NCBI GenBank assembly: GCA_022478985.1
Contig: JAKSZP010015905.1
Span: 62,001 to 126,000 of the forward strand
Length of the DNA stretch: 64,000 nt
Reading direction: 5' to 3'
Source: Massospora cicadina
Taxonomy: Eukaryota; Entomophthoromycota; Entomophthoromycetes; Entomophthorales; Entomophthoraceae
Each line of letters begins with the position of its first letter. Position 1 is the first letter of the stretch. Below the pieces are notes generated by a model, which was not told where the DNA came from, ran no database searches, and saw nothing but the letters and a program-made list of their open reading frames with translations. Shown here piece after piece: positions 1,985 through 64,000 of the stretch. The translations under genes were made by a program, and so were the position numbers.

Positions 1985-3150
1985 TCTTTATTTACAAATG
2001 GGCCAAACAAAGGGATTATCATAAATTAAAAAAATTCCTAATATAGCCCCTAGGTTATCAGCCTAGGAAGCCATATCAGATGGCGAGGAGGCTTTGGGAA
2101 AACTTTTGTCCGGCGCCCGCTTTAGCTGGCAGACCATAGCAGACAGCATTGAGGTGGGAGCATCAGTGGCATGGGGCTTAAGGTGGTATAGTTGGGGTTT
2201 ATCTTCATTTATGAGGCTAGCGGTGTCCATCGCTTTAATGTATTGAACAAATTGATGCACAGCAAAAACAATGAGAGCTAGCACACAAGTAAATGATTTG
2301 ATGCGCCGGTGGGTTTTGGGATAGTTGGGGTCAAAAAGAGAAGTTTTTGTGCATTAATGCAAGTGCAGCTCATACCAAAAGCAAGCTCCTCAATTTTGTA
2401 CTTCACATCTTCCTCAAAATCATGAGGAAAATTGGGGATAGGAATACCCTCGACAAGGGTTCCATTGCCCCATGGAGTTGCTGGCAGAGGAGGGTGTTGG
2501 ACGGGGCAGCTTAAGCTACAATTGCCTTTTCATTATTAAATAATATATAAATGGGACACCCATTTTTTGGATGAAAATGATAGGAACGCGATTTGGGAGG
2601 GTCAACAAAGAACTCCTCCAAAGGAAAATCAGATTTCATGTGGCATGGCCATCCATCCTCCTCAATCCATTCAAGAGCCTTAAATATTGGATTCAGCCAG
2701 CGCTGGGCCAGCCACCAGAATTGGGGCTGTGGCTGGAGCTGATTGGTCATGTGCTGTTGACCATGGCAGCTCAGCTATAACTGGTTCAGCCATCAACTCA
2801 GGATTCTGTAATCTGGTTGAATTTTCAAAATTTTTTGATTTTTTCAAATTTTGATTGACCGCCACTTTGGAAGCAGCACCAGAATTCCCTGACGTTGGGG
2901 GCAGGAGGATCAAGCCCCATTCAAAAATTGGGGCGAGGCAGCTTCCAGGGCAGCACCTGAGCCCTGAGCGACAGATGCAGTGGAAGCGGCAATCATGGGG
3001 CACTTGCGCTTTGAGTGGCCAAGCTCAAAGCACAAGGGGCAAATGGCGCAGTCATTTTTGACGCGCGCCCAGAATGGGTGATCAGGGGAAGATCTGATCA
3101 CAGTGTGGGGGTCTGGCCATTGGCATCACGATTGCTGGTTTTATTATAAT
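1985..3150 (-). mobile_element. ORF1-only LINE-related element, copy A (partial)
   Basis: Minus-strand fragment related to copies B, C and D. It codes DHPFWARVKNDCAICPLC at 3025-3080 and an intact CX2CX4HX4C zinc knuckle (CPLCFELGHSKRKC, 3000-3041). Much farther downstream, PHATDAPTSMLSAMVCQL near 2150-2190 matches PHHMDASTPLLSAL of copy B. The N-terminal half present in B-D is not visible, so the copy is 5'-truncated, near the LTR at 3372. The shared 3' tail motif of the other copies is also absent, so the 3' boundary is uncertain; a TAAATAAAGATG stretch near 1988 may mark it. Both ends are approximate. Confidence 0.6.
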
Positions 3151-13388: not shown

Positions 13389-13468
13389 GCTTTTCTTTCT
13401 CATAACAATCACTTTAGTTACTATGATTCAATTTGAACAGCAAATTTGGATAATCACACACAGGAAAG

Positions 13469-14827
13469 ATGGGCAACTTTAATAACAAAAATAATACAAC
13501 ATGGGCGAGTGTTACAGCAAGTGGTGCGCTTAACGGTGCAACTAAGGGCAAGAAACGCCCTGGAGGGGGACCAGGAACCCAAGCCATAAAAAAATCGCAA
13601 ACTCAGACACCATCTGGGTTTATGGTATTTACTGTAAAGCACGCGCAATACATGTACATTCAATTCAACCAACCTTTGTCAAAGGTGGAACACAGGATCA
13701 GACTCTTCCTTGGGGATGAGTCACCGACCCTGTAGGAGAAAACATGTGAGGCACAGCCCTCACTTTTCCCTCATGTAGTGTACGTAGCCACCAACAACAT
13801 GGGCCGTGGCTGGATCAATATTTGTTTTGAAACAGATGATGAAGCCGATGCCAAAGCAAAAATCTGCGTGGAAATTGCCCTCCATGAGGGCAAAAAAACT
13901 GTGCGCACCGCGTGCACCAGATGGAACAAAGCGAAAACTTTGCTCTTCTCCTTTGACTCACTCCCCACCAACCTTCTTCATAAGGTAATTGAGGAGGAGC
14001 TCTGCAAAGGTCTCGTGGCCTATGGAGAAATCCAGCAACTCAAATTACAGCGAATTTCGCTTAATGCCCAACCTGTGCATGGGCAAAGCTATCGCTGTAA
14101 TCAACCCCTTCCTGGAAGTGGAAGAGGATTTATCCAGAATTCCCCGCGCAGCAGAATTTCACTTCGCAGATGGGGGCCAGTCAGCTGCATTCTGAGTTAC
14201 ACTGGAACGCGCACCACCCATTTGCAACCACTGTGGCTCACTGGGCCACAAGGAACATGCATGCCCTGTAAAAGAGGGCTTAATGGAAAATGATTTTTGT
14301 GAAGAAGCTATGGATGAAGATAATGAAAACTTCGCCAAAATGACTGATGGCCACCACCCATCCACTGGGGTGAAGATGAACTATACTCCATCATGGACCC
14401 AGTTACAAGTAAACAGCGTAAAGCAGCACAAAAAGCCCACAAGAGAGCAGCGGCTGAAGCGGTGGCACACGCGGAATCCGCCATTAACCACGGAAAAATT
14501 TGGGAGGATATTTCAGATATTCACTGAACCAACCAATCAGAACAATATGCCCAGGTCAAAAATTTTCACAGTAACCAGACTTAGCCACAAAGCGTCATCA
14601 GTCATGCACATACTGAGGAACAATGCAACCGCAATTTGGGTGAAAATGTGGTGCACAATGCAACAAAGTTGAACCTCAAAAATATAAAATCCAATCAACA
14701 ACCCGCATCAAATCAACATGAGACCTGTGCAGGAAAAGTTGATGCAAATGCAAAAAACTTCAATTCCCTTGAATCATTGGGTCAGATCAAGGGAACCAAC
14801 AATGGCAGTGAAAGAGTTGGAGTATAG
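13469..14827 (+). pseudogene. LINE-1 ORF1: Gag-like RNA-binding protein
   Basis: The reading starts at ATG 13469, 80 bp inside the element, and ends at a stop at 14825-14827, with at least two frame changes. It holds a segment with FETDDEADAKAKICVEIALH, then MPNLCMGKAIAVINPF in another frame, and an intact CX2CX4HX4C zinc knuckle (CNHCGSLGHKEHAC, 14224-14265). LINE ORF1 proteins coat the element RNA in the ribonucleoprotein. LINE-2 ORF1 (25976-27317) is a clear homologue: GWLDLGFKTKEEADEAAKV aligns with GWINICFETDDEADAKAKI. The rest is charged and alanine/lysine-rich. ORF2 follows after two bases. Confidence 0.85.
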
Positions 14828-14829
14828 AT

Positions 14830-17800
14830 GTGGAGCATGGCCAAAATGAGCCGTGGTGGGATAGGGCCAGAGGGTCCTCCCAACTGCTCCTGAGGCGCCG
14901 CGGGCACCTTAGTGTCAATAGGGACGTTAAACATAGCGGGAGCCAGGGCTCTTATGTCCCAAGCCAAAAAGCTGGCATTCCTGCAAAAACTCTTGTATAT
15001 ATCTTGGCCATCCAAGAAACCCACTGCCTACAAGGGGAAGAAGAATCCTGGTCAACCAGGGTCGCACCATCACAATCAGTATGGACGTCTCACTGTGGGG
15101 TGATAGTCCAAAACAACAAAAAATTTAAAATTACAAATTCATCATCACACTTGCATGGTCGAGTCCTGGTAGCAACAATCACATGTCAAGATGAAGTAAT
15201 TTTGTTAGCATGTGTCTATGCACCGTGCACTGCAACTGAGAGAAAACAATTTTTTGAAAAAATTTCTACTCTCACCCTCCCACCAGATATCATCATGTTA
15301 GGCGATTTCAACTGCTGGGATAACCCCAATACAGATCGATGGCCTAATCCCAGGGGATACCCACCTGGACACATTGAATATCGCACAATGAAGGCATCTC
15401 TTGGCTTACAGGATGCTCTTCCCCCCAATTCACCAATCCTTCCCCACATGATGAGACCCAACATATGCAAGGGACTGCTCATATCGATGAGTCATATTGA
15501 CCACATCCTCATCCCACAATCCCACCACTCAAGAATCTCCAAATTTACAACAAAAAAGATCAATTTTTCTGAACACTGATTAGTTACAGTGCAGTTAGCA
15601 ACAACCCAATCCCACACACAGGTGTCGTCTTGGAGAAAGCTTCACCCAGGAAATATAAAATTTCCTGAGATATCTGACTGGGTTGAAAACAAGGCTACAA
15701 ACCCAGAATTCACAGCTCCATTCACTTCGGATCCATTGGAACATGGGAAAATTTCAAAAAAGATTTAATTAACAAAACTTGACATATTGCATCATGCAAG
15801 TACACCGCGGACACAGTCACAATCAAGCGTACCTTGGCAGAACTAGACCACCTGGAAATAAATACTCTGAGATCTGGCTATAGCCCTAATTGGGGACACA
15901 AATGGGCAGAAATTTTAGCCTGACTTAACAATATCATCTTCCAACACCAACACAGAATCAAAGTATCAAACAAAGGTAAGTTCATAAAGGAAGGCGAAAC
16001 CTGTTTGACATACTTTTTCCACCAATTCCACTCCCGCAGAAACCAGCCCGCGTGCACACAGGTCTGCAAGACCAATGGCACCATGGCAACTGACCCTGAG
16101 GAGGTCAAGGCGGAAGTTCACTGCTATTACACCGAATCATATCGTGATATGGCAACAGATCCACTAAGATTAAAGAATTTATTCAAACTGCCAAGATACA
16201 AAGTACACCACCAAATTACAATATACTATCCCTTATTACATGGGAAAAGCTTTGGGAAACAATTCGCGGTGCACGACTTAGAAAATGCCCAGGGCCTGAT
16301 GGGATACCCTACAAATTTTACTAAATGTTTTCAACAAATTGCCCCCCTCCTATTGGTGTCAATGAACCAGAGTTTGTTGGAAACACGCCTATTACCAGGA
16401 GGCCATGAATCCTACATTATAGCCTTGTATAAAAAGGGTGACAAGTTGAACCTGGCCAACTGGCGCCCAATTGCACTCTCCAACACTGACACAAAAATTC
16501 TAACAAAAATTTTAGCAGCTAGATTAGGCGCAATTGCATCTGACGTCCTATCACCCAACCAGTTTGGGTTTATACCAGGGCGTTCAATCTGGAACAACAT
16601 TCACCCTGTTGCAAACATTTGCCAATCCAAAGCAACTGGTGCCCTGGTCTTCTTGGATCAGGAAAAGGCGTATGACCGTGTTAGCTGGCCATACCTAAAA
16701 GAATATCTACATGCCTTCAAACTCCCACCAAGATTCATAAAATGGGCGATGCTCCTAACAGAATCTGCAACCATGGCTGTATGCGGCCCTGGATTCCTAA
16801 CAAACAATATCAAACCACACAGAGGGCTCAAACAAGGGGATCCCCTCAGCCCACTGCTATACAATTTCAGCTTTGACCCGCTCCTCCAAGTAACTGACTC
16901 ACGTCTCATGGGGATAACCGCACAAGGACAACCAACAGTCAAGATACTGACCTTTGCAGATGACTACGTAGCAGGTATAGCAAACAATGAAGATGCCCGA
17001 CAGCTGGAACACACTTTAGAGGAATACTCCAAGGTGAGCAATGCATCGCTCAACAAAAGGAAGACAGAAATCATCTTTTTAGGCAAATACACAAACGATT
17101 TGCCACAACATCAGAACCTCACACCAACACTCGAAGAAAAAACCCAATTATTTTACCATTTGCAACATCTCCCACCACCACTCCTGTCCGCCACCTTGGA
17201 ATCTAGCTATAATGAGGGGGATATGCTAATGAGACAATGGAAAGTAACTTGTTACAACGGGTATCCAAACGCGTAGCCTCCCTCAAGGGGAGAACCCCGG
17301 GACTAACAGGATGAGTTACAGTTGCTAACTCGCTCATCCTCCTAATACTGTGGTACCAGGCCCATGCGATAGCCTTCTCACCTACCTTTATAACCTCAAT
17401 TCGCGCGCTTATCCAGGGCTGGCTGTGGCCTGGCTCTCACCCTCCTATACGGATGGAAACACTATTTGGCCCACGCTTAAGCGGAGGCATGGGACTAATA
17501 GATTTTGAGAGCCATGCCAATCACATCCTAGGTACCTGGATATAGGAAATCCTTGCTCCAGACCTCCCGCAACAACATTGGTCCAGAGCAGCAAGGACTA
17601 ACTTTGCACAGGCGCTCAAATTAACCAACCCACATAGTCCACCCAGACTACTTTCATACCTTTCCAAGCACCCTACTGCAACAGGTCCGCATGGAACCTC
17701 CCCTCAATTCAAACATATCCTCTGAACTATCCGCCGTATGGGATGGACCATAGAGAACATGGGTACTATACAGGGAAGGGGACGACCCAGCCCCCAATTC

Positions 17801-18424
17801 AAATTAAGAAACCCAGAAAACCACCCCCAGAGGGATATTCTCGCAATAACCCCAAGCATAGCTAGGATAGAATACCTAGATATGCTGGACATTCCCTATG
17901 ATTTAATCACACAGAAAGCAATATGGAAAATGACACACCACCCACTCCTACAGCCAAGGGTAAGAGCAAACGCCTGGCGCTGTTTGAGAAGGACCTATAG
18001 GACGGCGGACCGCTCCAACTCCCTCCACAAAACATGTGCAGTATGTGGAGGGGAGGGATCCCTACATCACCGCCTAGAAACATGCCCCCCAACCAAAGCT
18101 ATATGGCAGGAAGTCGCACGCCTGCTCAAGATTCAAAACGAACAGGAATTCTCGATATCAAAAAGTATCTTCATGCTCCAGATCAAGTCACCAATCCCAT
18201 CTACCCTCCGCTCCCTAATAATACCCATTGCAATGTGAACAATACACACAATTGCATTAGATGCGTTCAAGGGCACGGTCCCAACCATTCATGGGATTAA
18301 CAACAGATTCCATGTCCACTTACTAGAGCACTTCCAAGCCTGGCTCTATGGATATATGAGACCAAGACAAAAAGCGCTCATAGAATCATGGTTCCCACTC
18401 CTTTCCTTCACACCTGCTCCATAG
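14830..18424 (+). pseudogene. LINE-1 ORF2: APE endonuclease, reverse transcriptase
   Basis: Starts at ATG 14830 in a +1-shifted arrangement. APE endonuclease motifs in order: GTLNIAGARAL, QETHC (near 15015), YAPC (15216), GDFNCW (15301-15318), SHIDHIL (15488), and SEH at 15571-15579 where SDH is usual. RT motifs: KKGDKLNLANWRPIAL (16430), NQFGFIPGRSIW (16558), DQEKAYDRVSW (16657), GLKQGDPLSPLLYNF (16828), FADD (16952-16963, catalytic, intact), then SNASLNKRKTEI. A CX2C...H...C motif (CAVCGGEG...HHRLETC, 18035-18088) lies near the C-terminus, with TERM near 18422. Frames break at about 15580, 15770 and 17275. The enzyme nicks target DNA and primes cDNA there. Confidence 0.92.
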
Positions 18425-18532
18425 CAGGGGAAAGCCCCTCGGAGTAGTGCACCAACCCCTCATACCTGCCACTCCCTCTGGCAACAGGGGTAACTTGAGT
18501 ACCCTGGGGTGCCCAATTTTTATATTTGTTAG

Positions 18533-18600
18533 TTATTCTCTTAGTTTCACATATATTCGGTAATGTCTGTCCCCTGGTCAGCTTACCTCAGTTAAATAAA
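18533..18600 (+). promoter_or_regulatory. LINE-1 3' tail, shared recognition-type end
   Basis: Contains GGTAATGTCTGTCCCCTGGT, then CAGCTTACCTCAG and TTAAATAAA. The same block closes LINE-2 and ORF1-only copies B, C and D. In LINEs the 3' end is where the reverse transcriptase begins. AATAAA here may double as the polyadenylation signal. Confidence 0.8.
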
Positions 18601-18615
18601 AAGTTGTCTCATAAG
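18601..18615. repeat. Target-site duplication of LINE-1 (right)
   Basis: AAGTTGTCTCATAAG, a 15/15 match to 13374-13388. It directly follows the AAATAAA end of the element. Confidence 0.95.
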
Positions 18616-23701: not shown

Positions 23702-23720
23702 AATATGAGTACTTATCTTT
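23702..23720. repeat. Probable target-site duplication of copy B (left)
   Basis: AATATGAGTACTTATCTTT resembles AATATGAGTTATCTTT at 25642-25657, differing by a 3-nt gap. It lies directly before the element start, CCACTCAACATCACTTTTT. Confidence 0.55.
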
Positions 23721-25641
23721 CCACTCAACATCACTTTTTAAGTGAATTTATTAGAAAGCATCTGTTAATTTTCCATCACCACCTACACCGTATCAGTTTT
23801 CCATTTATGTCAGCAGATATGCCATCTGCTGCCCCAGCGTGAGGCAGCAACGCTCCACCTGTAAGCGTTTTCCACCCAGCAGGCAAACGCATGTGAACTG
23901 GCTCATCCAGTCCTCCTAATGCATCAGGTCAATTTGTCCCTCCAAGGGACTTATTATTACACTTGGCGCGAGTCCACCCAACCCGTCCCCACCCACTTGC
24001 CCTACCCCAATTCAATATTTGCTTTTGCCTCTGAGTTAAATATAGGTGTCTCTTTCCATATGCTGACAAAGCAATAATTGAGCTGGCAACTTCTACGTTT
24101 TCACCAGTGGGATTTATTGACTTCCGCCCTTATAAGGGCTATTTTGATATTGGTTTTCCCACTAAAGAGGACGCAGCTGCTGCAGCAACTATGCCCTTGA
24201 TCTAAAAACACACCTAACATCACAACCTGTACACGCCTCCCCAGTGATACCATAATGGTGGTGACCTTTGCAAACCTTCCTTCGCACCTTCCTCCCTCAA
24301 ATACTCTATAAAGAATTGATGATGGGGCTATCCAAATATGGTACAAACCCCATCCTCCACTTCCTGGTCCCAAGCGGAGCTGAGAGGTTAGCGGCACCAT
24401 GGGCAATGGCCACCATTACCCACCACCAGTCAACCATAGCCCAGCACATCCCACCATGTGCCCATATCCCATATGCACCAGATCACTTCTTTTGGGCTCG
24501 TATAGACAATGGTTGCACCATTTTCCCCTCTGTCATGAGTTGGATCATTACAAAAAAACTGTAGCTACAATTTAAAACAAGCGGAATCCGCCAAGCTACA
24601 CATGAGGCTGCATAAACAGCATTTGAGTGGGGATTTTGGCTGCCACCACCACCTCCAGCTAAACGCTCAAAAATCAACAAAACCTTTGCAAACAAAGCCC
24701 AAGCCAGCTTAATTTCTCACAATATACCTAATCAGGAGCAGGCTTGGACCCATATTCAATCCAACCAATTTAATATCCCAAAACTTACTCAACCAAAACC
24801 TCGTCCTTCCAAATCAATCATGCTCAACCAAAATCCCTGGGACTTATTGGATGAATTAACTGAAGTTGGGGAAATTGTCCCACCTCCCGACTTTCTAATT
24901 AATTTGGAACCATATCTACTTTCAGATTTAGATGCCCCATTCCCACCCAAGAAATATGTTCCCAACCCCACTGCTACCCCATTCTTGAGTGACCATCAAC
25001 TTGCTGAGGCCGCTGTGGCCTCTCTGATAGCTGCCATCTCCGTGAGGCCATGGCATTATCTGTCACTGAATTTGATGAAGGGCTACATATAATCAATTAA
25101 CCTGCCAATTTCCCTGAGGTTGCAAAAGTGTAAATTGAACGATTAAGGGAAACTGCCACCTCTGCTATTAAGCAAGTTGTTGCACTAACAGAATTTCCCC
25201 CACCACACACATCACTGAAGCCAATATCACTAAATTTTCCCAGCTTCCCGATGCACGCATATAAGCTGAACACTATGTTTCCAAATTTCTGGATGCTGTG
25301 CTCCAGGCCCAGACTGCTACCAAAGAAACTAAAACTTTTCTATTTTTCCTCGACCCACATCACATGGATGCCTCAACCCCTTTGCTCTCAGCTTTGATCT
25401 GCCTCTTCATTTGTGAAGATGAAATTGATAATCTGCCTGATCCCCCCTCCCTCTCCCCCCTGCCATGGTGGGATAAGCGGTTCACAACTGCTACACCTGG
25501 TAGTTTAATTTTCCTTATTGTTTTGGTGTCTCGCCACTCATTTAGGGGCGTTTGGTTTGTGTTTTCTGTCATAATTTGTATTGGTAATGTCCATCCCCTG
25601 GCTGGCTTACCTCAAATAAAATTTAAAAAATTTAAATAATC
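23721..25641 (+). mobile_element. ORF1-only LINE-related element, copy B
   Basis: About 1,921 bp inserted in G1 pol. The 5' end (ATCTTTCCACTCAACATCAC) matches that of copy C (ATCTTTCCACTAAGAGTAAC) and resembles the LINE 5' ends. The 3' end carries GGTAATGTCCATCCCCTGGC, then TGGCTTACCTCAAATAAAAT, the tail shared with both LINEs. Between them is a single Gag-like ORF with no endonuclease or RT. Length agrees within four bases with copies C and D, which argues that this is the full unit and not a random truncation. Confidence 0.8.
23750..25560 (+). pseudogene. ORF1-only protein of copy B
   Basis: A broken ORF of roughly 600 codons. The N-terminal part has QFVPPRDLLLHLARVHP and a GFIDFRPYKGYFDIGF motif near 24110-24160. 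Next come a segment like LINE ORF1, then DHFFWARIDNGCTIF and a knuckle that has lost outer cysteines (near 24510-24560). The second half, unlike LINE ORF1, has NPWDLLDELTEVGEI (24830), HQLAEAA (25000), STPLLSALICLF (25375) and LPWWDKRF (25461), then a hydrophobic tail (GSLIFLIVLV). These motifs recur in copies C and D. The role is inferred: an RNA-packaging protein that rides on LINE machinery. Confidence 0.7.
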
Positions 25642-25880
25642 AATATGAGTTATCTTTTCACATGAAGACCACAATTTGGGATGTGCAAAGAACGTGGTAC
25701 ATTGAGTCAAGACTGGAGAATCTTGACTGATGAAGATGAGGCCCATTTAGAGGTCTTAAGCATCTGAGGCAGTGGTTGCTGAGGAAAATGATAAATTTCT
25801 AGAGCATGGAATGCTCGTTCCTTTTTCCAGTCTGTGGGAAAGTCTGATTTTAATAGTCAAGAAGAAAGAAGGTCAAGTAG
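25642..25880 (+). pseudogene. Start of G1 reverse transcriptase
   Basis: After copy B the G1 frame resumes and reaches SLWESLILIVKKKEGQV at about 25835-25880, the WASPVLIVKKKDG motif of Ty3 RTs. LINE-2 is inserted directly in the KKKEGQ codons; the RT continues at 31183. Confidence 0.7.
25862..25880. repeat. Target-site duplication of LINE-2 (left)
   Basis: AAGAAAGAAGGTCAAGTAG, a 19/19 match to 31164-31182. It encodes part of the RT motif VKKKEGQV. Confidence 0.97.
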
Positions 25881-25975
25881 AACTTTTCTCTCTCGTTGCA
25901 ATCAATTTTGCAACAAATTCAATTTGAGTCTAGGTAAAGTTTGATAATCTCACCAATGAGATTAGTTGGCGCCCA

Positions 25976-27317
25976 ATGTTAGGGAGCAGTTGGGTGAGTA
26001 GAGTTAAGGGCACAGGTGTTGGCCCCACGTCAACAAAAATTTGTAGATGCCCCAGCAAATCTGGCGGTATAGATAAAATTAATAAAAAACTGGCAGTTAC
26101 CATTTCCCCAAAAATTTTGGCTTGGCAAGCGCTGCAACCAGTTCATCAATACGCCGCACTCCCAACCACTATTGTCAGTGGAACATGGGGTGCATGTTTT
26201 CCTTGATATTCAGCAAACGGCGCTTTGGGAGATGTTCTGTGGAGATGTTACACACACATTTCCTGAACGCGGTGTACGTCGTACCCCACTCCATGCCACG
26301 TGGTTGGCTGGATCTTGGCTTCAAAACAAAGGAAGAGGCGGATGAAGCTGCAAAGGTGTGAGTAGTAGTAGACCTCCCAGATGGTCAACGGGTAGTCAAA
26401 ATGAAGCGCACCTATTGGACTAAATCAAACCAAAATTTTGTGACTTTTGACTTCCTATCTACTATGGTCAAGTGCACTGTGCTTGAGCACCACCTGAATG
26501 CTGGGCTCGCCATATATGGAGAAATACAATCCTTTGAATTGCAGTGCTTTATGCTGATGCCAAACCTGTGCACAGGTAAAGCAATTGCTATTCTCACCTC
26601 ATCTGTGGGGATAGCGGAGGATATAATTCAAATCCCTCACACCACTTTGGTCAAAATCATTGGGCAGAAGACCCATCCTTTCTGGGTCACTGTGGATAGC
26701 GCGCCTCCCATCTACACGTTCTGTCGCGCCTTTGGCTACAAGGCCCACATATGCCCCATCAAGGAGGGCATTACTCATCAAGAAATTCTCTCAGATGCAA
26801 TGGGTGGTGCAGAAGCCCATTATGAACTGGCACTAGACAATGATGAAGCCTTCCTATGAGGAGCGCAAGGCTGTTACATTCTAGTAAAGCCAGTGTCCCC
26901 ACAAGAGCAGAAGAAGGCCAAGCAGGCCCACAAGGCAGCAGCCAAGGAGGCGGCCTAGACTGTGTCCGCATTCCATCAGCCCAACTCCAGGAGGACATTG
27001 AGACTTTTGTGGTGGAAGCAGCTCGTGAATCTCTCAACCAATCAGATTGGGATGCCAAAGCTGATTGGGCCACCCAAGCTGAAATCCTAATGGACGAGGA
27101 AGTTTCACCCGATCAATTCATCCAAGCATCAATTGGGTCCAAGTTGCTCACTGGCAACCCTGCTAAAATCCCACCTCCAAGCGATGGTGCACCGCAAATG
27201 CGCACACTGCAAAAAGCTTGGCCCACAGTGGGAAAAAAGCAGAAGGCAAAAGCCAACGCGAACCCCACTGCTAAAGCTAACCATTCCAACATATACTCCA
27301 TAGCATCAGATACCTGA
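25976..27317 (+). pseudogene. LINE-2 ORF1: Gag-like protein
   Basis: I take the ATG at 25976, 95 bp from the 5' end as in LINE-1, and the stop at 27315-27317. At least three frames are used. MPRGWLDLGFKTKEEADEAA (near 26293-26355) is shared with LINE-1 ORF1 and matches the KGYFDLGF block of the ORF1-only family. MPNLCTGKAIAILTS (26560) and HPFWVTVDSAPPIYTFC (26672) follow. The zinc knuckle at 26710-26757 is degenerate (FCRAFGYKAHIC: first Cys and His lost). The C-terminal third is Ala/Lys/Gln-rich, with NQSDWDAKADWATQAEI, and probably binds RNA. ORF2 starts 75 bp downstream. Confidence 0.85.
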
Positions 27318-27392
27318 GGCGCCTACAAGCGCCATGAAGAAAAAGAGAAGGCTGAAGGGCTTAGGTGCCCTTCCCCTTGCATCTAAGGTGCA

Positions 27393-30300
27393 ATGGGGGG
27401 AGCCTTTACTTTAGGAACGTTGAACATCACGGGACCTAAGGCCTCATTGTCCTGGGCTAGGAAACTGAGTTTTTTACATAATAATTTACCCATGGACATC
27501 CTGGACATTCAGGAAACCCACTGTCTGCGCGGTGCTGAGGAATCATGGAATACCATGCTCCTCCCTTCCCTATCCTTTTGGTCTGAGCACTACGGGGTGC
27601 TGGTTTGAGTGAACAGTAATTTTAATCTATTTCATCAAATTTATACCTGAACGGCTACATCCTTGTTGTCACCTTTTCATGGGGTGAAGAAGTGCATGCT
27701 GTCATTAACATCTATGCCCCAACCTGTGCACAAGAATGTCAGAGTTTTTTGGTTGTCAATTCCCTTCCACTACATAATGACCTCTTTGTTGTTGGAGACA
27801 TGAACTGCTGGATGAACTCATCCACAGACCGCTGGCCCTCATCGACTACACCCCCACAGGGGCACATTGAACTTCACGTTCTCAAGGCCACCCTAGGGTT
27901 GTTCAATACCTTGCTGCGCCATGCTTCAATACTCACTAACATGTCGCGCCCCCACGTTTACAACGGCCAGTTAAGGTCCATGACCTGCATTGACCTTATC
28001 CTTGTGCCTTTTAAATTTCGAACCCAAAATTTTCACTTCACCATGACAAAAATCAATTTCTCTGACCATAGAATGGTGTTGATTTCCTTCCACCTTTCCT
28101 ACCCTGCAGCCCAGGCGCCAAAATGGTGCAAACTTCGCCCTGCCAACATTTCATCTCCTTGACTTTCCTCATGGGTAGAATATGTGACCTCAGCTCTGGA
28201 GTTTATTGCACCGTTATGTGCAGATCCAATTTCCACCTGGTCAACCTTCAAGGCGAGCACAATCTTCCAGGCTAGCCACCTCTCCTCCCATCACTCATGG
28301 GCTGCCTCGGTGATCATTTTGCGCACACTGGCAGAGTTGGACCACCTGGAGTCCAACGTCCCCGCTGCAGGATACAGCCTAGCTTGGGGTTACAAGTGGG
28401 CAGAAGTCGCTTCCCGCCTCAATGCACTGTTGAGACAACACAAGCACTGGGTTTGTGTTCAGTATAAAGCTAAACATATTACAGTGGGCAACACGTGCTC
28501 CGCTTTTTCCAAAAAAAATTTGCACTGCGCCAATGTTAGTCCTGCACACAGGTGCAAAGGCCAGACCACTCCATAGCAGATACACCGGCTGAAGTGGCGA
28601 TTAAGATACATAACTATTACTCTGAACTGTATTGATCCAATCCAATTCAGCTGGCCGAAGTGGCGAAATTTTTTGACTGAACCCACATCCGCACCATTTT
28701 CTGATACCCAGAGTTGATGAATTTGATTACTCAGGACAAACTCTGGTCCACCATTTGCGGTGCATCGTATAGGAAACGCCCAGGTCCAGATGGCATCCCT
28801 TGTGGGTTCTATAAGAAGTATTTCAAAGATATATCCACCTTACTAATTGCCTCTCTTAACTAATGCCTTCTGGAAACGTGCCTCCTGCCTGGTGGGCAAG
28901 AGGCCTTCACTATCACAATATACAAAAAAGGGGATAAGCTGGACTTGGCCAACTGGCGCCCCATTTCTCTTACTAACACAGACACAAAGCTTTAACTAAA
29001 ATCATGGCTAACCGTCTAGGGGTTGCTGCATCTTCTCTCATTTCCCCTGAACAATTTGGTTTCATACCTAAAAGGCCGATTTGGGACAATTACACACTGT
29101 AGCCAATGTCCGTCAATCCACGGCTTCTGGAGCACTTGTATTCTTAGACCAGCAGAAGTATTCTTAGACCAGCAGAAGGCCTATGATAGGGTAAACTGGG
29201 AATACCTCAGCGCCTGCCTCCACAAGTTCCGCCTCCCCCCTCGCTTCATCAATTGGGTGATGTTGCTAACGGAATCCGCCACAATGGCTGTGCGTGGCCC
29301 TGGCTTTCTCACTGACGTAGTTCTCCCTCAAAGGGGACTGTGTCAAGGGGACCCTCTTAGCCCATTCTTGTATAACTTCAGCCTTGACCCACCTCTTAAA
29401 AATGTGAATGGCCACCTAACTGATGTCCATGTGCAAGGCCAGGAACCAGTCAAGATTTTGGCATTTGATGATGATTGTGTGGTTGGGGTATCTAACAATC
29501 ATGATGCACGCGCGCTTCTAGATATTATCCAGGTTTACTCCAGGGTAAGTAACGCAGCACTCAACGCCTTCAAAACCGAAATTGTTCTCCTTGGTCAGTA
29601 TCAAGCATGCTGGGCCCCAGAACCCTGTTTCCTGCCCACCTCATCAGCTAGCGCCCGAGTTAGCTTGCCCTGCCCACCCCACACCGCCCCGTTTGTGCTC
29701 CCCTTTGTGCCAAGCCCCACCGTTGGCCCTGTCCGCCATCTGGGGGTGTGGCTGGAGGCATGAGGGTACGCCTCATCAGTGATGGAAAACCATATCCTAG
29801 ACAACATGACAAAACGCATAGCTTCCCTTAGAGCCCGTCAGACCTCCCTTACATGCAGGGTAGTGCTTGACAGCTCTATGCTCCTCTCTAAAGTTTGGTT
29901 TGGGGCCCACGCCATCGCTTTTCCCCCATGTTTCTTCAAGTCACTATACGCCCTTCTACAAGGGTGGCTTTGGTTGGGCCACCCACCACCAGTGCGCCTG
30001 AATGTCATGTTTGGCCCTCGAAATTGTGGTGGTATGGGTCTGCTCAACTTTGAGACACATGCCACCAAAATACTTGGAACCTGGATCGCACCCGTTACTA
30101 ACCCTACTATTCCAGCCCAACACTGGTCCTGCGCGGCCTGTTCCAACTTTTCCCACACCCTGGGCCTCACCAATCCTTTCCACACCCACTCTCTGTTGAA
30201 GTACCTTGCCTCACATCCTTCTGCAGCTGGCCTACATGGGACATCGCCCCACTTCAAAAGGATCCTCCTCTCCATGCAGAGCGCTGAGTGGAGAATTTTC

Positions 30301-30990
30301 ATCTGTGGGCGCACCACCCAGAGGGGGAGTCCCTCTCCTCTTTTCACCCAGGAAGTACAAGGACTTCCTATTCTGAACTGAGTTATACCCATACAACCCC
30401 TACCATGTCCAGGGTGGACTACCTGGACATGATGGACATCCCCTACCCCCTTGATACCAAGAAAGCCATTTGGAATTATGCCCACCACCCTCTTCTGCAG
30501 CCACATATTCGTTCCCATGTGTGGCGCTGATTGAGATGGGTATACCATACTGCGAACGCTCTAACGCTTAGCACTTATCCTATGTCATGTGTGGCCAGTA
30601 CAAAACGCTGGTTCACTGCCTGGAGAAGTGCCCTCCATCTAAAGTGATATGGCGTGAGGTGCACCGTCTGCTTCACCAGGATCAGGAACAGCCCTTTAGC
30701 CTGTCTAAAGACATGTTTGCTTTATCCATGGCCTCCCCTCTTCCGCCCTCCCTCTGTGCCTTGGTAGTCACAATCGCTATGTGGACTATCCACACGATCA
30801 TCTTGGATGCCATCTAAGGCTCCACCCCCACCCTCCAAGAAGCTGTACACCAGTTCTGGTTGCACTTAATGGGCCACTTTTAAGCGTGGATGTTTGGGTA
30901 CCTCCCACCATGGCGCTGCTAGTTGGTCTCATCCTGGTTCCCAGTTTGGTTCATTGTTTCAGACCCCTTCCTCCATACGTGCTCAATAGT
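27393..30990 (+). pseudogene. LINE-2 ORF2: APE endonuclease, reverse transcriptase
   Basis: Starts at ATG 27393 with the APE domain: LGTLNITGPKASL, QETHCL (27511), YAPTC (27713), GDMNCW (27796), TCIDLIL (27987), NFSDHRMV (28057; catalytic SDH intact, unlike LINE-1). RT: KKGDKLDLANWRPISL (28925), QFGFIPKRPIWDN (29050), QKAYDRVNW (29172), GLCQGDPLSPFLYNF (29335) and FDDD at 29464-29475 in place of FADD. A C-terminal cysteine motif ending HCLEKCPPSK lies at 30605-30640. The TAA at 30817 ends one frame, but homology to LINE-1 continues to about 30990. Several frameshifts and stops make it inactive. Confidence 0.92.
29138..29177 (+). repeat. 20-bp tandem duplication in LINE-2 RT
   Basis: GTATTCTTAGACCAGCAGAA occurs twice back to back (29138-29157 and 29158-29177). 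The unit encodes the start of the VFLDQ(Q/E)KAYDR catalytic motif. Twenty bases is not a multiple of three, so the duplication shifts the frame. LINE-1 has a single copy of this segment. Confidence 0.95.
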
Positions 30991-31094
30991 GGTGCAAGCC
31001 CCTGCACACGTGACCCCCCTCCTTCTCTTGGCGTTCCCGCTGGCAACAGGAGATAGCTTTTGCTTCTCTGGGGTGCCCTCCTCTTGCTGAAGTT

Positions 31095-31163
31095 TTGGTT
31101 CTCTTTTAATTGTTTTATTGGAAGTGTCTGTCCCCTGGTTGGCCTTCCCCAAATAAATAATAT
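31095..31163 (+). promoter_or_regulatory. LINE-2 3' tail, shared recognition-type end
   Basis: GGAAGTGTCTGTCCCCTGGT, then TGGCCTTCCCCAAATAAATA. It matches the LINE-1 and ORF1-only tails in order and position and includes an AATAAA. Confidence 0.8.
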
Positions 31164-31182
31164 AAGAAAGAAGGTCAAGTAG
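31164..31182. repeat. Target-site duplication of LINE-2 (right)
   Basis: AAGAAAGAAGGTCAAGTAG, identical to 25862-25880. The G1 RT frame continues from here. Confidence 0.97.
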
Positions 31183-44148: not shown

Positions 44149-44162
44149 GTACTTAAAATATT
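44149..44162. repeat. Target-site duplication of copy D (left)
   Basis: GTACTTAAAATATT, an 11/14 match to GGACTAAAAACATT at 46085-46098. The uninterrupted L4 fragment near 37580-37600 shows a single copy of this segment. Confidence 0.55.
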
Positions 44163-46084
44163 CAATTTATTTGAGGTAAGCTAACCAGGGGACAGACATT
44201 ACCATATCCAAAAAACCAAAACTTAATGTAACTAATCAATTCAAACAAAACGCCCAAAAAGAGAAGATTAAATGATACTACCAAACGAAAACAGCCAACC
44301 AGGTGGGGCAGCGGAAGACCATATTTATTTGACCATAGTGGAAGGGGAGTGAGAATTGGGGGGCTCATCTTTGGCAGCAGCTTCCTCATTCCAGAGTAGG
44401 GCATGGGCCAAGGCGGAGAGCAAGGGCGTCAGGGCATTGGCGGAATGTGGTTCAATATCACTAAGTATTGGTATCTCATGGAAATTCCGCTAAAAATGGC
44501 GCTGATATACGTGGCTAAAGCTTTTTTGGCTTTAATGCGGGCATCTGGGAGTTAAATAAATGTGGTAAATTTGTTTCAGGTAATCTTTGCTTTAGGATTC
44601 CGTTCTACAGTTACCACGTTCTGGATAGTGTCGTTGGCATCTTTTTTTAATTAATTCATTGTATTCTTACTTTGTGGGGTGAGGGTTAAGGAGATAACAG
44701 GAGGGGAAATACCTCTTGTGAGCATTTTTTCTGATTTGGCATCAGCTTTGCGAAGGGGTGTCAATCTGGCGTGGCAGCTGCTTTGAATGCAAGATGGTGG
44801 TCACTGCAAGATGGTTCAGCATTTGGCTGTGGGGCATATAAATGAGGGGGTATTTAGCGTCCCATTACGAATTAACAAACTGCTCAATTTTTAGAGATGG
44901 TTCTTCTATGAAATTACCTGATTCGTCAATTTCAACCAACAACTTTCATGAGTTCTGATTGAAATGAAAGAGGAATCAGCATGTCTTATGATTTTATGAT
45001 TTGGTGGCAGCATGTGGGTAAACTGTTTTACAATCCTGTCCATGATTGGTGGCAGCATTTGTGTCTCTGGGCGGGGAAGGAACATTATTAGTTGTTGCAT
45101 ATTAATCTGTAATGGTAGGCTTTGGAGGAGGTGGTAGGATAGTACCTCATACCGCAAAAATCGTTGGGTTGGTAGCAGAATGGATTATGGTGGATGAGGG
45201 CGCAGAGCCATCAGAAGCCTCCAGGAATGGGCTTTTGCGTTTTGAGTAGTCCAACTCAAAACAGGATGGACAGATAGTCCATCCACCCTTGACGCATGCC
45301 CAGAATGGATGGTCAGGGGCAGATGGAGTGACAGCATGGGGAGGAATTGCCAAAGCAATTTTTGTTAAAATCATGGCTGATCATGGAAAATGCCCAAGAA
45401 CCAGCTTGTTGTGTTGTCCCATTTAGGACCACAAATTGTAGGATGTGATTAAAAACCCAGACTGCCAAACCTTCCATCAGATCCTGATGGAACAACGCAG
45501 GGATAAAGTATGATTAGGAAAACCAGCAAACTGGACCACCAAAGTGGTGTACGCTGGGAACCATGTCTGAGTGGTGGGAATAGGGTACCCTGGAAAATTA
45601 GGGGCACAGTTGCCACAGTGGCGGCATTAGCTTAACATGTGAAGCCTAAGTCAAAATACCCCTTGTAGGGGTGGAAGTCTATGAAGCTGGCAAGTTGAAT
45701 CACCACCTGAGCTATTTTGATTATTTGTTTATCATCATATGGGAATAAATTCTCATATTCGACCCAAAGTTCAAAATGCATATTGCTCCAGGGGAGCACC
45801 AGGGGACAACGAGGCACTGCATGGGTATGCACAAGATGGGTGTTGAGATTCTTGGGTGGATTGAACTGACCCAAGGTTTATTATGATTGGATGAACCAGT
45901 CTGAGCATGTTTTCCCACCAGATGGAAAATGCTAGGGGAGTTTCGCTGCTGCCCCACGCTGGAGCAGCCAGCAGAGAATCTGATGACATGAGGTAGAATC
46001 AGCAGTTGGAAGTTGAAATTTTACTTTGTTTGCTTTTTACTAAATTTTCTTGGAAAATTAATTGAGATGAAAGAAAAAACTTTT
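44163..46084 (-). mobile_element. ORF1-only LINE-related element, copy D
   Basis: A 1,922-bp minus-strand insertion in an L4 LTR. Its 3' end (left) carries on the minus strand GGTAATGTCTGTCCCCTGGT, then TAGCTTACCTCAAATAAATT, nearly identical to the LINE-1 and copy B tails. The host LTR resumes on both sides and the insertion site is confirmed by the fragment at 36948-37704. The length matches copies B and C. Confidence 0.82.
44330..45990 (-). pseudogene. ORF1-only protein of copy D
   Basis: Read leftwards from about 45989: SSDSLLAAPAWGSSETPLAF, GQFNPPKNLNTHLVHTH, LHFGLWVKY-like ELWVEYENLFPYDD, then ASFIDFHPYKGYFDLGF (near 45645-45700). HPFWACVKGGWTICPSC (near 45265-45310) precedes a knuckle reading CPSCFELDYSKRKS, where the His and last Cys are lost. 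The C-terminal domain shows PHSANALTPLLSAL (44400-44450) and a damaged PLP.W segment before a hydrophobic end. Frame changes are frequent. The order of motifs is the same as in B and C. Partner RT must come from elsewhere. Confidence 0.7.
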
Positions 46085-46209
46085 GGACTAAAAACATTTT
46101 TGGTCTTTGATCGCAAATAAGTTCACCATAAGATATAACAAATTAGCCATAAGCTAATATTGTTATTTTTTATATCAAATGTAACTGATGATTCAGGTCC
46201 AGTCAACCA
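46085..46209 (+). repeat. L4 long LTR copy 1, right part
   Basis: Resumes after copy D and ends GATTCAGGTCCAGTCAACCA, identical over 20 nt to 37685-37704. After that the two copies diverge, so I place the LTR end at CCA. Confidence 0.65.
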
Positions 46210-58560: not shown

Positions 58561-58844
58561 AAATCAAGAATCAGGCTGCTGATCAAGTATAGCATATTGG
58601 TTAGCTAAGCTCAATGAAGGGGATATGGGTCTGTTTCATGACAAACACAGGTTCAGTGAAAAAGCACAAATTGGCAAGCATTTGGATTAAGCCGTTTGAA
58701 GTCAATGAAAAATAGGTGTCAACGCCTACACTATTAAAAACCCCTAAAGCGGTTAGATCATTAACTGAGCGCATGCAAAGTTCCTCCAGCAGTATAAGCA
58801 ATAGGAGCCTTATTGACCAGTCAAATAGGGTAATAATGAGATTC

Positions 58845-60087: not shown

Positions 60088-60360
60088 GATGCTCACTACA
60101 GAGGGTAGTATACCACAAATATCTATTAGAAATAGACTTTGGGGTGAATAACCTCACAAACTCCCAGCAGCTTCCAAATCCTGTCTAGATGCTTTAGTCC
60201 AGCAGCTATCCAGCACACTGTCTTGTCTTAAAACGCTCAAACATCACGTTTGCCAAGCCTTTCATGAGGCTTCATAATTATCTCCAAATCTCCTTTCAGA
60301 GACAAATTTACCCCAGGTGAGAGTAGCATCACTTTTTTCCTCTTTTTCTGTGTTAAATTC
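60088..60360 (+). other. Primer-binding-like site and short internal leader
   Basis: ATGATGCTCACTACA at 60088-60102, then about 260 bp of presumed gag leader up to the L4 LTR start at 60361. No coding motif seen. Confidence 0.35.
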
Positions 60361-60711
60361 TGGCAGTTGACTCGAAAATAATCCATTTGACAACCAACAG
60401 GTCGGGCCAATTATCCTCCTAATGCTTGAGCTAATACTCTAATTAGAGCCTATTGCAATAACATGGCTCAGGCCAATTATTGCAACGTGGATTTAATTAT
60501 ATTATCAAAAGCTTATTCTGAATAACTTGAACATTTAGGCTGATATTTTTCTGCAATAACATGGCTTGTACAATTATTGCAACATCAATTTAATTATAAA
60601 AAACTCAGGCCAAAATACACTTGCACGTTCAGGCTGACCTTTTCTGCAACTACTTGGCATGGGCCAATCAACTCAACATTAATTCAAATCAATTATTCTA
60701 TCAGCAGCCTA
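60361..60711 (+). repeat. L4 long LTR copy 2, left part
   Basis: Starts TGGCAGTTGACTCGAAAATA and aligns with 42397 on (TTTGACAACCAACAG, GCT.GAGCTAATACT, ACATGGCT..GGCCAATT). It contains two diverged repeats of a CATGGCT...ATTATTGCAAC unit. Copy C interrupts it at 60711. Confidence 0.72.
60694..60711. repeat. Target-site duplication of copy C (left)
   Basis: ATTCTATCAGCAGCCTAG against AATCTATTGGCAGCTTGG at 62637-62654, about 13/18, mostly transitions. The uninterrupted L4 copy has a single ATTCTATTGAAAGCTTAGG near 42545-42565. Confidence 0.6.
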
Positions 60712-60781
60712 GATCTTTCCACTAAGAGTAACTTTTGAGCGATTTTTAATCAAGTAAAAAGTAAAGTAAGTCAACCCATCT

Positions 60782-62548
60782 ATGACTACCTTCCCCATTT
60801 GCCTGTCAATGACCTTGGATTCTCTGCCGGCTTCTCCCATGTGGGGCAGCAGTGAAACCCCACCCAGTAATTTCCAATCAGTGAAAAAATACGCTCAGAC
60901 TAGTTTGGCAAGTCCCACCAAATCTTTGGGTCAATTTATTCCGCCCAAGGATCTCACCATCCACCTTGCACATGCCTAGGAAGTGACTCACAGCCCATTT
61001 GTTCTCCCCCACTCCCAGCTGCATTTTGGCCTTTGGGTCAAATATGGAAAATTATTCCCATATGCTGAGATAGCAATTATTGACCTATCCCAGGCGGTGA
61101 TGCTGCTAGCCAGTTTTATAGATTTCCGCCCCTATAAGGGGTACTTCAATCTAGGCTTCACTTATGAATCTGATGCCACCACTGCAGCCACCGTGCCCCT
61201 GGTTTTCCATGGCACCCCTATACCAACAACGTGCACCCAGCTCCCCATGGACACCACTATGGTGTTTCAATCTGTGGGGTTCCCACACACCTTCCCCCCA
61301 CGGTGCTCCATCAGGTGTTGATGAAAGGTTTGTCAACGTACAGATCCAACCCAATCTTTTAGTTTGTGGTCCCCAATGGGGCCACTCGCCTCGCTGGGCC
61401 TTGGGCATTTACCACAATTAGCCCAACTATTAACAAAATTTCTTTGTTGATTCCCCCCATGGCACCATTCCCTCTGCCCTTGACCACCCATTCTGGGCCC
61501 GTGTCAAGGGCGGATGGACTATCTGTCCATCTTGCTTCAAGTTGGATCACTCAAAGTGTAAATGCCCCTATCTCGCTACATCCTCTAGGACCTACGTTGC
61601 CTCCATTTAGCCCACAATACTCCACACACACCACTGCCTTTCAGGTATGTGGCACAATTCTTTCCCCCTCTCCCCAAAACCTGCAGCTGATGCAGCACCT
61701 GCAAATGCCAATCAGGACCCTCCCCATTCCAGTGCCACAGGTGCTTCAACCAATCAGGAGACATATTGAATAATGGTTTGGTCCCACTTTATTCTTCAAT
61801 TGACAGATACAACTCATAAATTCACCAAACCCGTTTTTCAATATGATTTGAACCCATGGACTGCATTGGATGAAATCAATGAAGTGGGAAATGTTATTGA
61901 AGACTTGGAAGTCCAAATCAAAGAATTTATACAGGTAAAGCGGCCCGTTCAGTTCCCTCAGCGTTTTTACAGCCCCCAGCTGGATTCCAATGTGTTCCGC
62001 CCTACCCACCAGCTCGCTGAAGCAGCAGCCAAGCACCCAGATAATGCTGACATCTTTGAGTTTGCTGCCAAGTCAATGGCAAAACTAGCTAAGGGTCTCC
62101 CTCCTCCCATTTTTTCCCCAATTCTGTCCCCATTGGGCAAACGTGACATCCTCATCCTCCACAAACAAACACCTGCACCATCCAGAAAGTGGCTGAAGCT
62201 TTGAAATACAAGCCAAAAGCCACCCATGCCACCGCTGCTTTGTTATCCCAGCTTCCTTCCATCTGCCTACACTTGGAACAATGCTTATCTAAGCACCTAG
62301 GTGCAAATTTTGCTTCAGGTAATTACCACAACCAACTGACTATCAGAAATGTCAACCCACATGTCTTTGATCACCCCACATCATTTCTCTCTGCCATATC
62401 ATGCACTCTTTCCTATGAGAAGGACCCCAATACCAAGGATGAGCCCCCAATCCCCTTTCCCCTTCTGCCATGGTGGGATAAATGGCTCATTGCTGTTCCA
62501 CCTGGTCAGTTGATTTATTGTTTTTTGTGTGTTTTGGCGCTTATTTAG
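60782..62548 (+). pseudogene. ORF1-only protein of copy C
   Basis: Read across frames from ATG 60782 to the stop at 62546. N-terminal: MWGSSETPPSNFQSVKKYA, LGQFIPPKDLTIHLAHA. Then LHFGLWVKYGKLFPYAEIAI and ASFIDFRPYKGYFNLGFTYE (near 61110-61170). FVVPNGATRLAGPWAF (61355) and HPFWARVKGGWTICPSC precede a perfect CX2CX4HX4C knuckle at 61524-61565 (CPSCFKLDHSKCKC). C-terminal half: LNPWTALDEINEVGNVI (61850), RPTHQLAEAAAKHP (61995), PLGKRDILILHKQT, DHPTSFLSAISCTL (62370), PLLPWWDKWLIAVPPGQLIY (62458) and a hydrophobic end. No endonuclease or RT. The first half resembles LINE ORF1; the second half has no match in either LINE. Confidence 0.78.
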
Positions 62549-62559
62549 GGCGTTTGGTT

Positions 62560-62636
62560 CATATTTTCAGTTCTCTTATCTAGTGTTTCTGTTTTGGTAA
62601 TGTTCATCCCCTGGTCATTTTACCTCTAATAAATTT
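62560..62636 (+). promoter_or_regulatory. Copy C 3' tail, shared LINE-type end
   Basis: TGGTAATGTTCATCCCCTGG then TCATTTTACCTCTAATAAAT. The same block closes LINE-1, LINE-2, B and D, only slightly altered here. Confidence 0.75.
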
Positions 62637-64000
62637 AAATCTATTGGCAGCTTGGGCCAAATACACTCGCACAGTTGTGCCAATTATCGCTTTACCAAAC
62701 CTTGGCAACTAGACCCAACTAATTGGGACCAATATTAAGAAATCAGCATAAGAAATAGTTTGGGATCAACCTGAAGATAATGTCTACGAATCACATGAAC
62801 AAATATACAAAAAGAATGTAATCCGTTTTCCTCCCTCCCTAGGGCAAATTCATATGTTGATCCTCATAATTGGCACAATAGAACTTGCACATGGACCGCT
62901 GGAATGGGAGTACCTAGTGCTATCCAGAGGACAGTTGACGTCCTGATTAGGGAGTTGTTTTTCAGCTGTATGACAAAACATGATTGACTGGTCAAAAATA
63001 CTTTCCCACCTATGGCAAATTTTGTATGTCAGTACACATAATAAGAACAATAGCAATTGCACATGGACTGCCCGAATGGGAGTACCTAGTGCTATCAAGA
63101 GGGCCATTTGAAATCCCAATTAGGGCGTCTTCATCAGCTGTATGACAAAAACATATTTTGAGCTGGTCCTAAAATAATTTTTGTTGTTGATACATGTAAC
63201 TAGCATGATAGCACTTGCACATGGACCAACTGAATGGGAGTACCTAGTGCTAGTTAGAGAGGCCTGCCATCGGCCTGATTAAGGGTACATCATTTTTTAA
63301 ATTGACCACGAAATTCCCCAGATTTCGAATTTTGTCAGAAGTATGATGAAACTCATTTTGAGATGATCCTAGGACCATTTTGCATGCTCATTATTGCGGT
63401 TTTTGTCCCTGAAATCCTCCTGAATATGAGATTATTTTGACATCAATAAACTTAGGAATAGGTTTTAGTCATATCAGTTCAAGGGATAGACTGAGGTGGA
63501 AAATAATCTGTGAGATTGCGTGCTTGAATGTGCATGAGATGTCCTAGAGGTATAAATACTGGAGCCTGGCCTAATGAATAGTTATCAAATAATCTAGTCT
63601 AATAAAAATCTATTTTATGTAATACTTCTCTCCAGTTTTTATTTTAAGTCGCTTTTGGAGAGTGTCAAGCAAGCTAAGATCTTGAGATCCACAGATTGAA
63701 AATTCGCCTGCCTTGGCTTAAGTTCCCAATTACAGAGGAAAAATCAAGCCCAAAAGTGGCCAGAAGAGTTGGGGCCATTAGAGGATGCCAAATGAGTTTC
63801 TGAACGGTAAAATACCTTAAGCCACTGGAAAAATTGAGGATCCTTAGGCCAAACTTCCACCCAATTAAGCGTAAAGGAATTAATTATCCAAGTGAGCGAT
63901 TCTCAGAATTTCACAGTCTATGAGGCTGTTATGGTTGAGGCAAAAGATTCCCTAAAACTAAAAATATTCTCCCCTGCCTCACACGCTTCATTCAAGACTT
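62637..64000 (+). repeat. L4 long LTR copy 2, right part (runs off window)
   Basis: Resumes after copy C and follows L4 copy 1 from about 42550 to at least 43620: TTGATCCTCATAATTGGCA, GGAGTACCTAGTGCTATC, TATAAATAC, CCTGGCCTAATGA, GAATTTTGTCAG. Past 63913 it still tracks the 43508-43620 block (TATTCTCC, ACGCTTC), so the LTR continues beyond the window. It contains three short diverged repeats of an ATGGAC..C.GAATGGGAGTACC unit (62890-63250). Confidence 0.72.
63551..63558 (+). promoter_or_regulatory. TATA box of L4 LTR copy 2
   Basis: TATAAATA, in the same context as 43127-43134, with CCTGGCCTAATGA about 13 bp downstream. Confidence 0.6.

Follow-up and report, generated by a model that had tools for sequence, protein, structure and literature searches.

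HAL1 elements derive from L1 and encode ORF1p only, and their coding capacity is reported to have lasted ∼29–44 Myr in the guinea pig (PMC3627910). According to a review they arose from L1 several times (PMC5753468), and both sources propose that ORF1p acts in cis, ORF2p being provided in trans (PMC3627910, PMC5753468). HeT-A is described as encoding no reverse transcriptase (RT), the enzyme being likely taken from other elements (PMC5537684). In stringent LINEs, the ORF2 protein is said to recognise a cognate stem-loop (PMC4176376), and internally deleted R2 elements as well as R2/R1 hybrids are presented as non-autonomous elements inserting into 28S genes (PMC3414825). Among titles and abstract openings of the open-licence part of PubMed Central, we recognised no ORF1-only family besides HAL1 and HeT-A. 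Such elements pose a question: why would a parasite that is unable to copy itself keep making a protein?

We analysed a stretch of 64,000 nucleotides from Massospora cicadina (contig JAKSZP010015905.1, positions 62,001 to 126,000, hereafter the window), in which three elements named B, C and D combine a LINE-like 3′ tail with a single ORF1-like frame, now decayed. In our reading, they belong to an old, diversified and coding lineage of non-autonomous non-LTR elements, which would have its own RNA-binding protein and borrow the RT of a LINE. We give this reading a probability of about three in four.

Elements of 1.92 kb in the window and in the genome

A sequence-only reading of the window had pointed to three insertions of ∼1.92 kb, and profile searches confirmed them as real elements (Table 1). 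Using nhmmer and a profile made from 28 genome copies (C itself among the 28), C was matched over 60711-62641, its ends being uncertain by a few bases and its own target-site duplication (TSD) weak. With the same profile, D was matched over 46082-44157 on the minus strand, and B in two parts, 23698-24553 and 25208-25629. Over 755 bp, C and D have 71.7% identity, and the other scored matches of the B family are 83 to 88% identical to B. As that reading had also stated, no match to an RT or to an APE-type endonuclease was found inside B, C or D. In the fourth, decayed copy, the shared tail was looked for and not found. LINE2, which has a 5′ end and an ORF1 of its own, starts 222 bp past B and is oriented like it.

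Table 1. Location of the elements and of their parts, in window coordinates unless a locus outside the window is named.
Feature	Position	Strand	Description
Element C	60708..62639	+	near-full-length ORF1-only retroelement; nhmmer match to profile columns 25-1957
Element B	23713..25641	+	near-full-length, second ORF1-only family
Element D	44157..46087	-	near-full-length, third ORF1-only family
Fourth copy	∼2066..3130	-	5′-truncated, decayed; nearest, by eye, to the L023 3′-flank family
Inferred single ORF of C, decayed	60809..62481	+	ATG at 60809, stop TAA at 62479-62481, ∼557 codons
RRM-like core of C (inferred)	61115..61450	+	limits approximate; homologous to LINE ORF1 (hhalign)
CCHC zinc knuckle of C	61524..61565	+	C-x2-C-x4-H-x4-C, from the frame translation
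Place of the 3′ hairpin in C	62596..62624	+	GGTAA...TTACC; the tail extends to ∼62639
3′ hairpin of B	25583..25611	+	
3′ hairpin of D	44175..44203	-	
LINE1	13425..18605	+	ORF1 with knuckle, APE-like frame, RT, shared tail
3′ hairpin of LINE1	18559..18587	+	GGTAA/TTACC
LINE2	25863..31169	+	second LINE type, same tail architecture
3′ hairpin of LINE2	31120..31148	+	GGAAG/CTTCC
SINE (∼290 bp)	L018:5356-5650	+	
SINE (∼290 bp)	L012, 3′ flank		
SINE (∼290 bp)	L037, 2407-2692	-	
SINE (∼290 bp)	L038, 3697-3990	+	

Copies were then collected from the whole assembly (1.47 Gb, 16,968 contigs). The C query gave 12,290 first-look candidates and the B query 8,416, and for each query the best 40 were scored. 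Full-length copies, defined by a start at position 45 or before and an end at most 33 positions from the last base, made up 29 of the best 40 for C (C included) and 39 of the best 40 for B (B included, two small extra B matches being excluded), shares that are biased upward because the scored 40 are the best matches. A start beyond position 300 was seen in 4 of the best 40 C matches and in none of the best 40 B matches; in the sole B match with a late start (C363), the 5′ part is one of the two small extra matches, so that this copy is interrupted, not truncated. A sample of random DNA was taken as nine stretches at fixed places in the first nine of 80 contigs chosen beforehand at random. These 82 kb yielded an almost complete copy of the LINE2 type, two SINEs, and a single ORF1-only copy, which runs off the end of its stretch.

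TSDs were scored in 30 copies against a null made of mispaired flanks. Scores exceeded the 95% null in 20 copies and the 99% null in 17; in these 17, the element measures 1911 to 1945 bp, with a median of 1922. Most copies passing the null have a TSD of ∼15–23 bp, and two alignments reach 29 and 34 bp. These TSDs of variable length, together with some 5′ truncation, are traits of LINE-type insertion. In the window, each of the three insertions had been described as bounded by target-site repeats: this stands for B, which scored 25 (99% null, 23.3), and is weak for C and D, which with 18 and 19 fall below the 99% null. D has an empty-site relative at 37240-37709, since its joined flanks align unbroken through the junction (69.5% over 492 columns). 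The joined flanks of C gave two separate pieces in the window, hence no clean empty site.

We then read 41 3′ junctions. The tail was reached in 39 of them (28 C copies including C, 4 divergent C-type copies, 6 B copies including B, and D), and unrelated DNA in the other two. None of the 41 continues into ORF2: in line with the sequence-only reading, the copies read do not run on into an APE/RT frame. Two sets of candidates for such a continuation were examined and rejected: four C matches ending at 1794-1817 all carry a divergent 3′UTR followed by the same tail, and the early-ending matches C5291 and C5983 stop in unrelated DNA without any LINE match. We found no sense-oriented LINE within 1.4–2 kb on the 3′ side of any of the 28 C copies; the 3′ flanks of L009 and L011 have LINE matches in opposite orientation. 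Sense LINE sequence lies downstream of 2 of the 6 B copies, B itself (LINE2) and L048. The latter, on contig C9251, has the endonuclease part of a LINE upstream and the RT part downstream in the same orientation, and the interrupted LINE frame resumes beyond the insertion. We read the LINE sequence following B as a neighbouring insertion, and that around L048 as the host of a nested one.

At 2 of the 28 C loci (L005 and L010), a LINE 3′ end is found directly 5′ of the ORF1-only copy. These LINEs were taken as separate insertions, the ORF1-only copy having landed at a LINE tail. The TSD of L005 scored 22, above the 95% null and below the 99% null.

The window contains other repeats. A long inverted repeat at 7381-8323 looks like a fold-back element (7652-8201 is 76% identical to its own reverse complement, and 7381-7493 is 87% identical to 8323-8210). 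A weak aspartyl protease-like frame lies at 55287-55694 on the plus strand (PF13650, E 0.0019, below the cut-off), perhaps from a decayed LTR element. Several dispersed repeats are ∼70–81% identical: 36939-37709 with 43500-44156 and 46097-46214 (the pair that gives the empty-site relative of D), 42387-42860 with 60351-60544 and 62640-62952 (flanking C, without a clean empty site), 52861-53407 with 58841-59395, and 18593-19102 with 35092-35600.

A single protein related to LINE ORF1

None of the 28 C copies and none of the 6 B copies has an intact frame, and the longest stop-to-stop frames of C itself are 144, 136 and 133 aa. The extent of the C frame was obtained by a column analysis of the 28 aligned copies. 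An ATG is present at column 123 in 79% of the copies and the stop at column 1795 in 100% of those ungapped there, and between them an open path of ∼557 codons runs in phase 2, then in phase 1 (the knuckle), then in phase 0. The earlier claim of one Gag-like CCHC protein per element is thereby retained for the inferred ORF, and does not hold for any window copy as it stands, none being intact. The majority phase of the C family shifts by one base at two C-tracts (columns ∼760 and ∼970-990) that vary greatly in length; D reads in one frame across both sites, and B copies shift phase at an A-run inside the knuckle. We take these shifts as homopolymer contractions; they may instead reflect programmed frameshifting.

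Decay of the CpG type is strong in this genome. In the C family, 114 of 329 TG/CA/CG columns have decayed both ways, compared to 12 of 428 control columns, and part of the stops seen in the copies is later damage. Two majority stops in the 6 B copies were considered as a sign of a dead master, and this was rejected: the two positions hold a mixture of TGA and CAA, which suggests that they were CGA codons before decay.

The first half of the protein had been said to resemble LINE ORF1, and the comparison of profiles agrees. Aligning 30 ORF1-only sequences with four LINE ORF1 sequences by hhalign, the N-half and knuckle matched LINE ORF1 over 190 columns with a probability of 97.6, an E-value of 4.4e-12 and a score of 85.7; a reversed control scored 15.4, and the maximum of 100 column shuffles was 25.2. 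The knuckle of C comes after an HPFW block, and aligned to the LINE knuckle. A direct profile search ranked LINE1 at the top (E 2.7e-7), followed by L027, a LINE1 relative (2e-5), and LINE2 (0.044); with hhalign against single sequences, LINE1 and LINE2 were about level.

The ORF1-only families also have a C-half in common. With its profile, no match was obtained up to an E-value of 10 in LINE1 and LINE2, none in the LINE of L027, none below E 0.2 in the third LINE (L035), and none up to E 1 in L044, a negative that covers five LINE copies and frames of at least 40–50 residues. A tree was built over 224 columns from the ORF1 of five LINEs and nine ORF1-only sequences. It gave the clan of ORF1-only sequences a support of 100/100 and a branch length of 2.0 substitutions per site, lengths being rough because the alignment includes pieced-together decayed copies. 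Judged from these comparisons, the families are neither simple halves of adjoining LINEs nor products of recent deletion in a LINE that we examined, and those sampled seem to descend from a single old lineage by splitting.

Predicted structures were weak. An AlphaFold2 model of the N-half, made for a relative, had a mean pLDDT of 61, with blocks at 80–86 solely in the RRM-like core. Its order of helices and strands would be compatible with an RRM, and the KGYFNLGF block of the core may be read as an RNP1-like strand. Foldseek of this model against the PDB gave no match at E 0.001, and Pfam detected no RRM in either half (the knuckle piece lay outside the scan). Profiles of Pfam and PDB matched the two halves weakly, the best being a Pfam E-value of 0.0059 in 2 of 18 C-half members, and 0.52 for the PDB. 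The model of the C-half (mean pLDDT 63) shows a helical fold in which two helices are long, and this half is probably private to the families and helical.

To what extent was the protein under selection? We compared the C copies with D, B, L012 and L023. An excess at the third codon position was found in all four comparisons for the N-half and for the knuckle, and in three of four for the C-half (L023, p 0.073). After removal of CpG-type columns, the N-half excess persisted in all four (p 0.0002 each) and the knuckle excess in three (L012 was marginal, p 0.059); the C-half excess was clear against D only (p 0.0008), with p-values of 0.26 for B, 0.12 for L012 and 0.17 for L023. Within the C family, again without CpG-type columns, third-position variation in the N-half was 0.171 compared to 0.143 and 0.114 at the other positions, and in the knuckle 0.217 compared to 0.108 and 0.112; the C-half had no such excess. 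This variation may include selection on the source elements or composition. Between families, the N-half excess (0.18–0.36) was larger than within the C family. The excess between families makes it very likely that the N-half was selected as a protein while the families diverged, and the corresponding signal suggests such selection on the C-half weakly.

Termini shared with LINEs and with a SINE

The three elements and the two LINEs of the window had been described as ending in the same tail. This proved correct, and the set of carriers is wider: one type of tail, ∼39 nt long, ends B, C, D, LINE1, LINE2, the LINE relatives found in flanks and the third LINE, and is also present on a SINE outside the window. 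The Tad1 clade is a clade of fungal LINEs. Among the LINEs considered here, LINE1 matched PF00078 (RT) at E 8e-34 and PF03372 at E 6.5e-5, just under the cut-off of the latter. Viral contigs were searched with the LINE RT, and none matched.

Folded one by one, 5 of 8 tails adopt the shared shape GGTAA-(inner stem)-TTACC, and the decayed tail of C does not (z -0.3). Folding energy alone is a weak argument, given z-scores ranging from -0.3 to -2.4. Over 43 tails, 83% of the cells pair, compared to 14–45% when the 3′ side is slid by 1–3 positions; 16 of 42 tails have a broken outermost stem pair. The stem GGAAG/CTTCC of LINE2 and of L009, a relative of LINE2, differs from that of LINE1 by changes on both sides of pairs 3 and 5. 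Changes on both sides also affect pair 5 in L014b, as well as pairs 1 and 3 in L018b. Covariation was looked for in the inner CCG/CGG stem as well and rejected, its variants being those that independent CpG decay gives. From the stem changes, the tail is predicted to form a hairpin with compensatory changes, a 3′ stem-loop common to the LINEs and to the ORF1-only elements. The stem of L035 is GGAAG/CTTCC, and a LINE2-like copy at L005 has GGTAA/TTACC, so that the LINE family does not settle the donor type.

At the other end, LINE1 begins with 34 nt (CTTTTCTTTC...) that are similar to the start of B, of D and of 3 among 5 C copies (p 0.0008–0.011), a comparison whose start points were set on a motif, which favours similarity. 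For the remaining two C copies, p-values were 0.055 and 0.066.

In two flanks, the SINE copies have the LINE hairpin tail and TSDs. Among 4,604 first-look candidates, the best 40 scored are 97–100% identical, which indicates that part of this family is young; two more copies, from the random stretches, are 87 and 91% identical. ARAGORN called no tRNA in two SINE-bearing loci, and the "tRNA-like head" of the SINE is therefore a reading by eye.

Origin and movement of the ORF1-only lineage

Could each family be a separate and fairly recent internal deletion of a LINE that kept ORF1 and the 3′ end, as in HAL1? The common tail, the similar 5′ end and the ORF1 homology are what such recurrence would leave, and HAL1s are reported to have arisen several times (PMC5753468). 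Yet the nine ORF1-only sequences are separated from the five LINE ORF1s in the tree (100/100), the C-half that the families share was not found in the five LINE copies checked, and a deletion junction into ORF2 was seen in 0 of 41 junctions, so that we hold this origin to be improbable. Alternatively, the elements could be partial kin of an autonomous LINE clade, the members of which that carry an ORF2 would be rare or extinct, or would have escaped sampling. A missing clade of this sort might explain the long branch, and scoring covers the best 40 candidates per query only; against it, the families come in units of 1.92 kb that have TSDs and constant ends, and ORF2 continuation was absent from all the junctions read. 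We find it rather unlikely.

The protein might also be a relic, if recent sources spread as long SINEs by means of the tail alone and the protein was needed by ancestors only. This would account for the 34 copies read without an intact frame, for the homopolymer phase shifts in C and B copies, and for a C-half constraint that fades in three of four comparisons once CpG-type columns are removed; a SINE with nothing but the tail does exist, with many copies 97–99% identical. What stands against it is the third-position excess of the N-half in every family comparison, together with the decay data: majority stops in the 6 B copies that are TGA/CAA mixtures pointing to CGA, and the both-way decay of C-family TG/CA/CG columns far above controls. 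A relic seems unlikely to us. As to a gag-only element of the LTR type (LARD or TR-GAG like), a Gag-like knuckle protein without pol is all that would recommend it. The self-comparison of the window revealed no direct repeats at the span ends, most null-passing copies have TSDs of ∼15–23 bp, with a LINE tail and some 5′ truncation, and the N-half is homologous to LINE ORF1; such an element has next to no chance of being the right answer.

We therefore come back to a coding lineage that borrows a LINE RT, and propose that it moves as follows. A source element would transcribe its RNA from a LINE-like 5′ end, and this RNA would be translated into one protein of ∼557 codons, made of a LINE-ORF1-like N-half and a private C-half. 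Presumably, this protein binds along the RNA that encodes it and coats it, and it may be needed in cis. The 3′ end of the RNA would be the hairpin tail of a resident LINE, and the ORF2 protein of that LINE would take up the tail and insert a copy of the RNA by target-primed reverse transcription. Copying in trans by a LINE RT, already put forward in the sequence-only reading, is the likeliest mechanism in view of the shared tail, the TSDs and some 5′ truncation. From the stem sequences, the donor would most likely be a LINE with a GGTAA/TTACC stem (LINE1, L005 type) rather than one with GGAAG/CTTCC (LINE2, L009, L035), and LINE1 is a candidate for the donor type.

On a broader scale, we lean slightly towards a picture in which a single LINE tail serves three tiers: the LINEs themselves, a long-lived lineage of coding parasites with at least four families (an ORF1 N-half joined to a private helical domain) that evolves apart from LINE ORF1 and is not re-derived by deletion, and a SINE, some copies of which are young. 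One genome would then offer a comparison of this tail accompanied by a protein (ORF1-only) and lacking one (SINE), among thousands of candidate copies, and the several families give family-level selection data for that comparison. If true, the repeat loads of large genomes can hide coding parasites annotated as LINE fragments or unknown repeats.

How do these elements compare with known systems? The name HAL1-like, given to them earlier, fits in part. Like HAL1, they are non-LTR elements with an ORF1 protein only and a coding capacity that was kept for long, and their mode of action would resemble that of HAL1 or HeT-A. Their LINE-like ends and homology to LINE ORF1 agree with the name. They differ in that their kin, among the local LINEs compared, have a knuckle ORF1 and a structured tail, and in that the families form one deep clan on a separate long branch, apart from local LINEs and with an extra C-half. 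With HeT-A, an element of Drosophila telomeres, they share the lack of an encoded RT, but they are dispersed, TSD-flanked insertions on many contigs with a LINE hairpin tail (telomeres were outside the comparison). R2 and R2/R1 deletion elements are likewise described as non-autonomous non-LTR derivatives (PMC3414825), whereas the present elements are dispersed and have a distinct protein of their own. As in stringent LINE/SINE pairs, donor and parasite appear to have a 3′ stem-loop in common; the difference is that here a coding parasite carries the tail, as well as a SINE.
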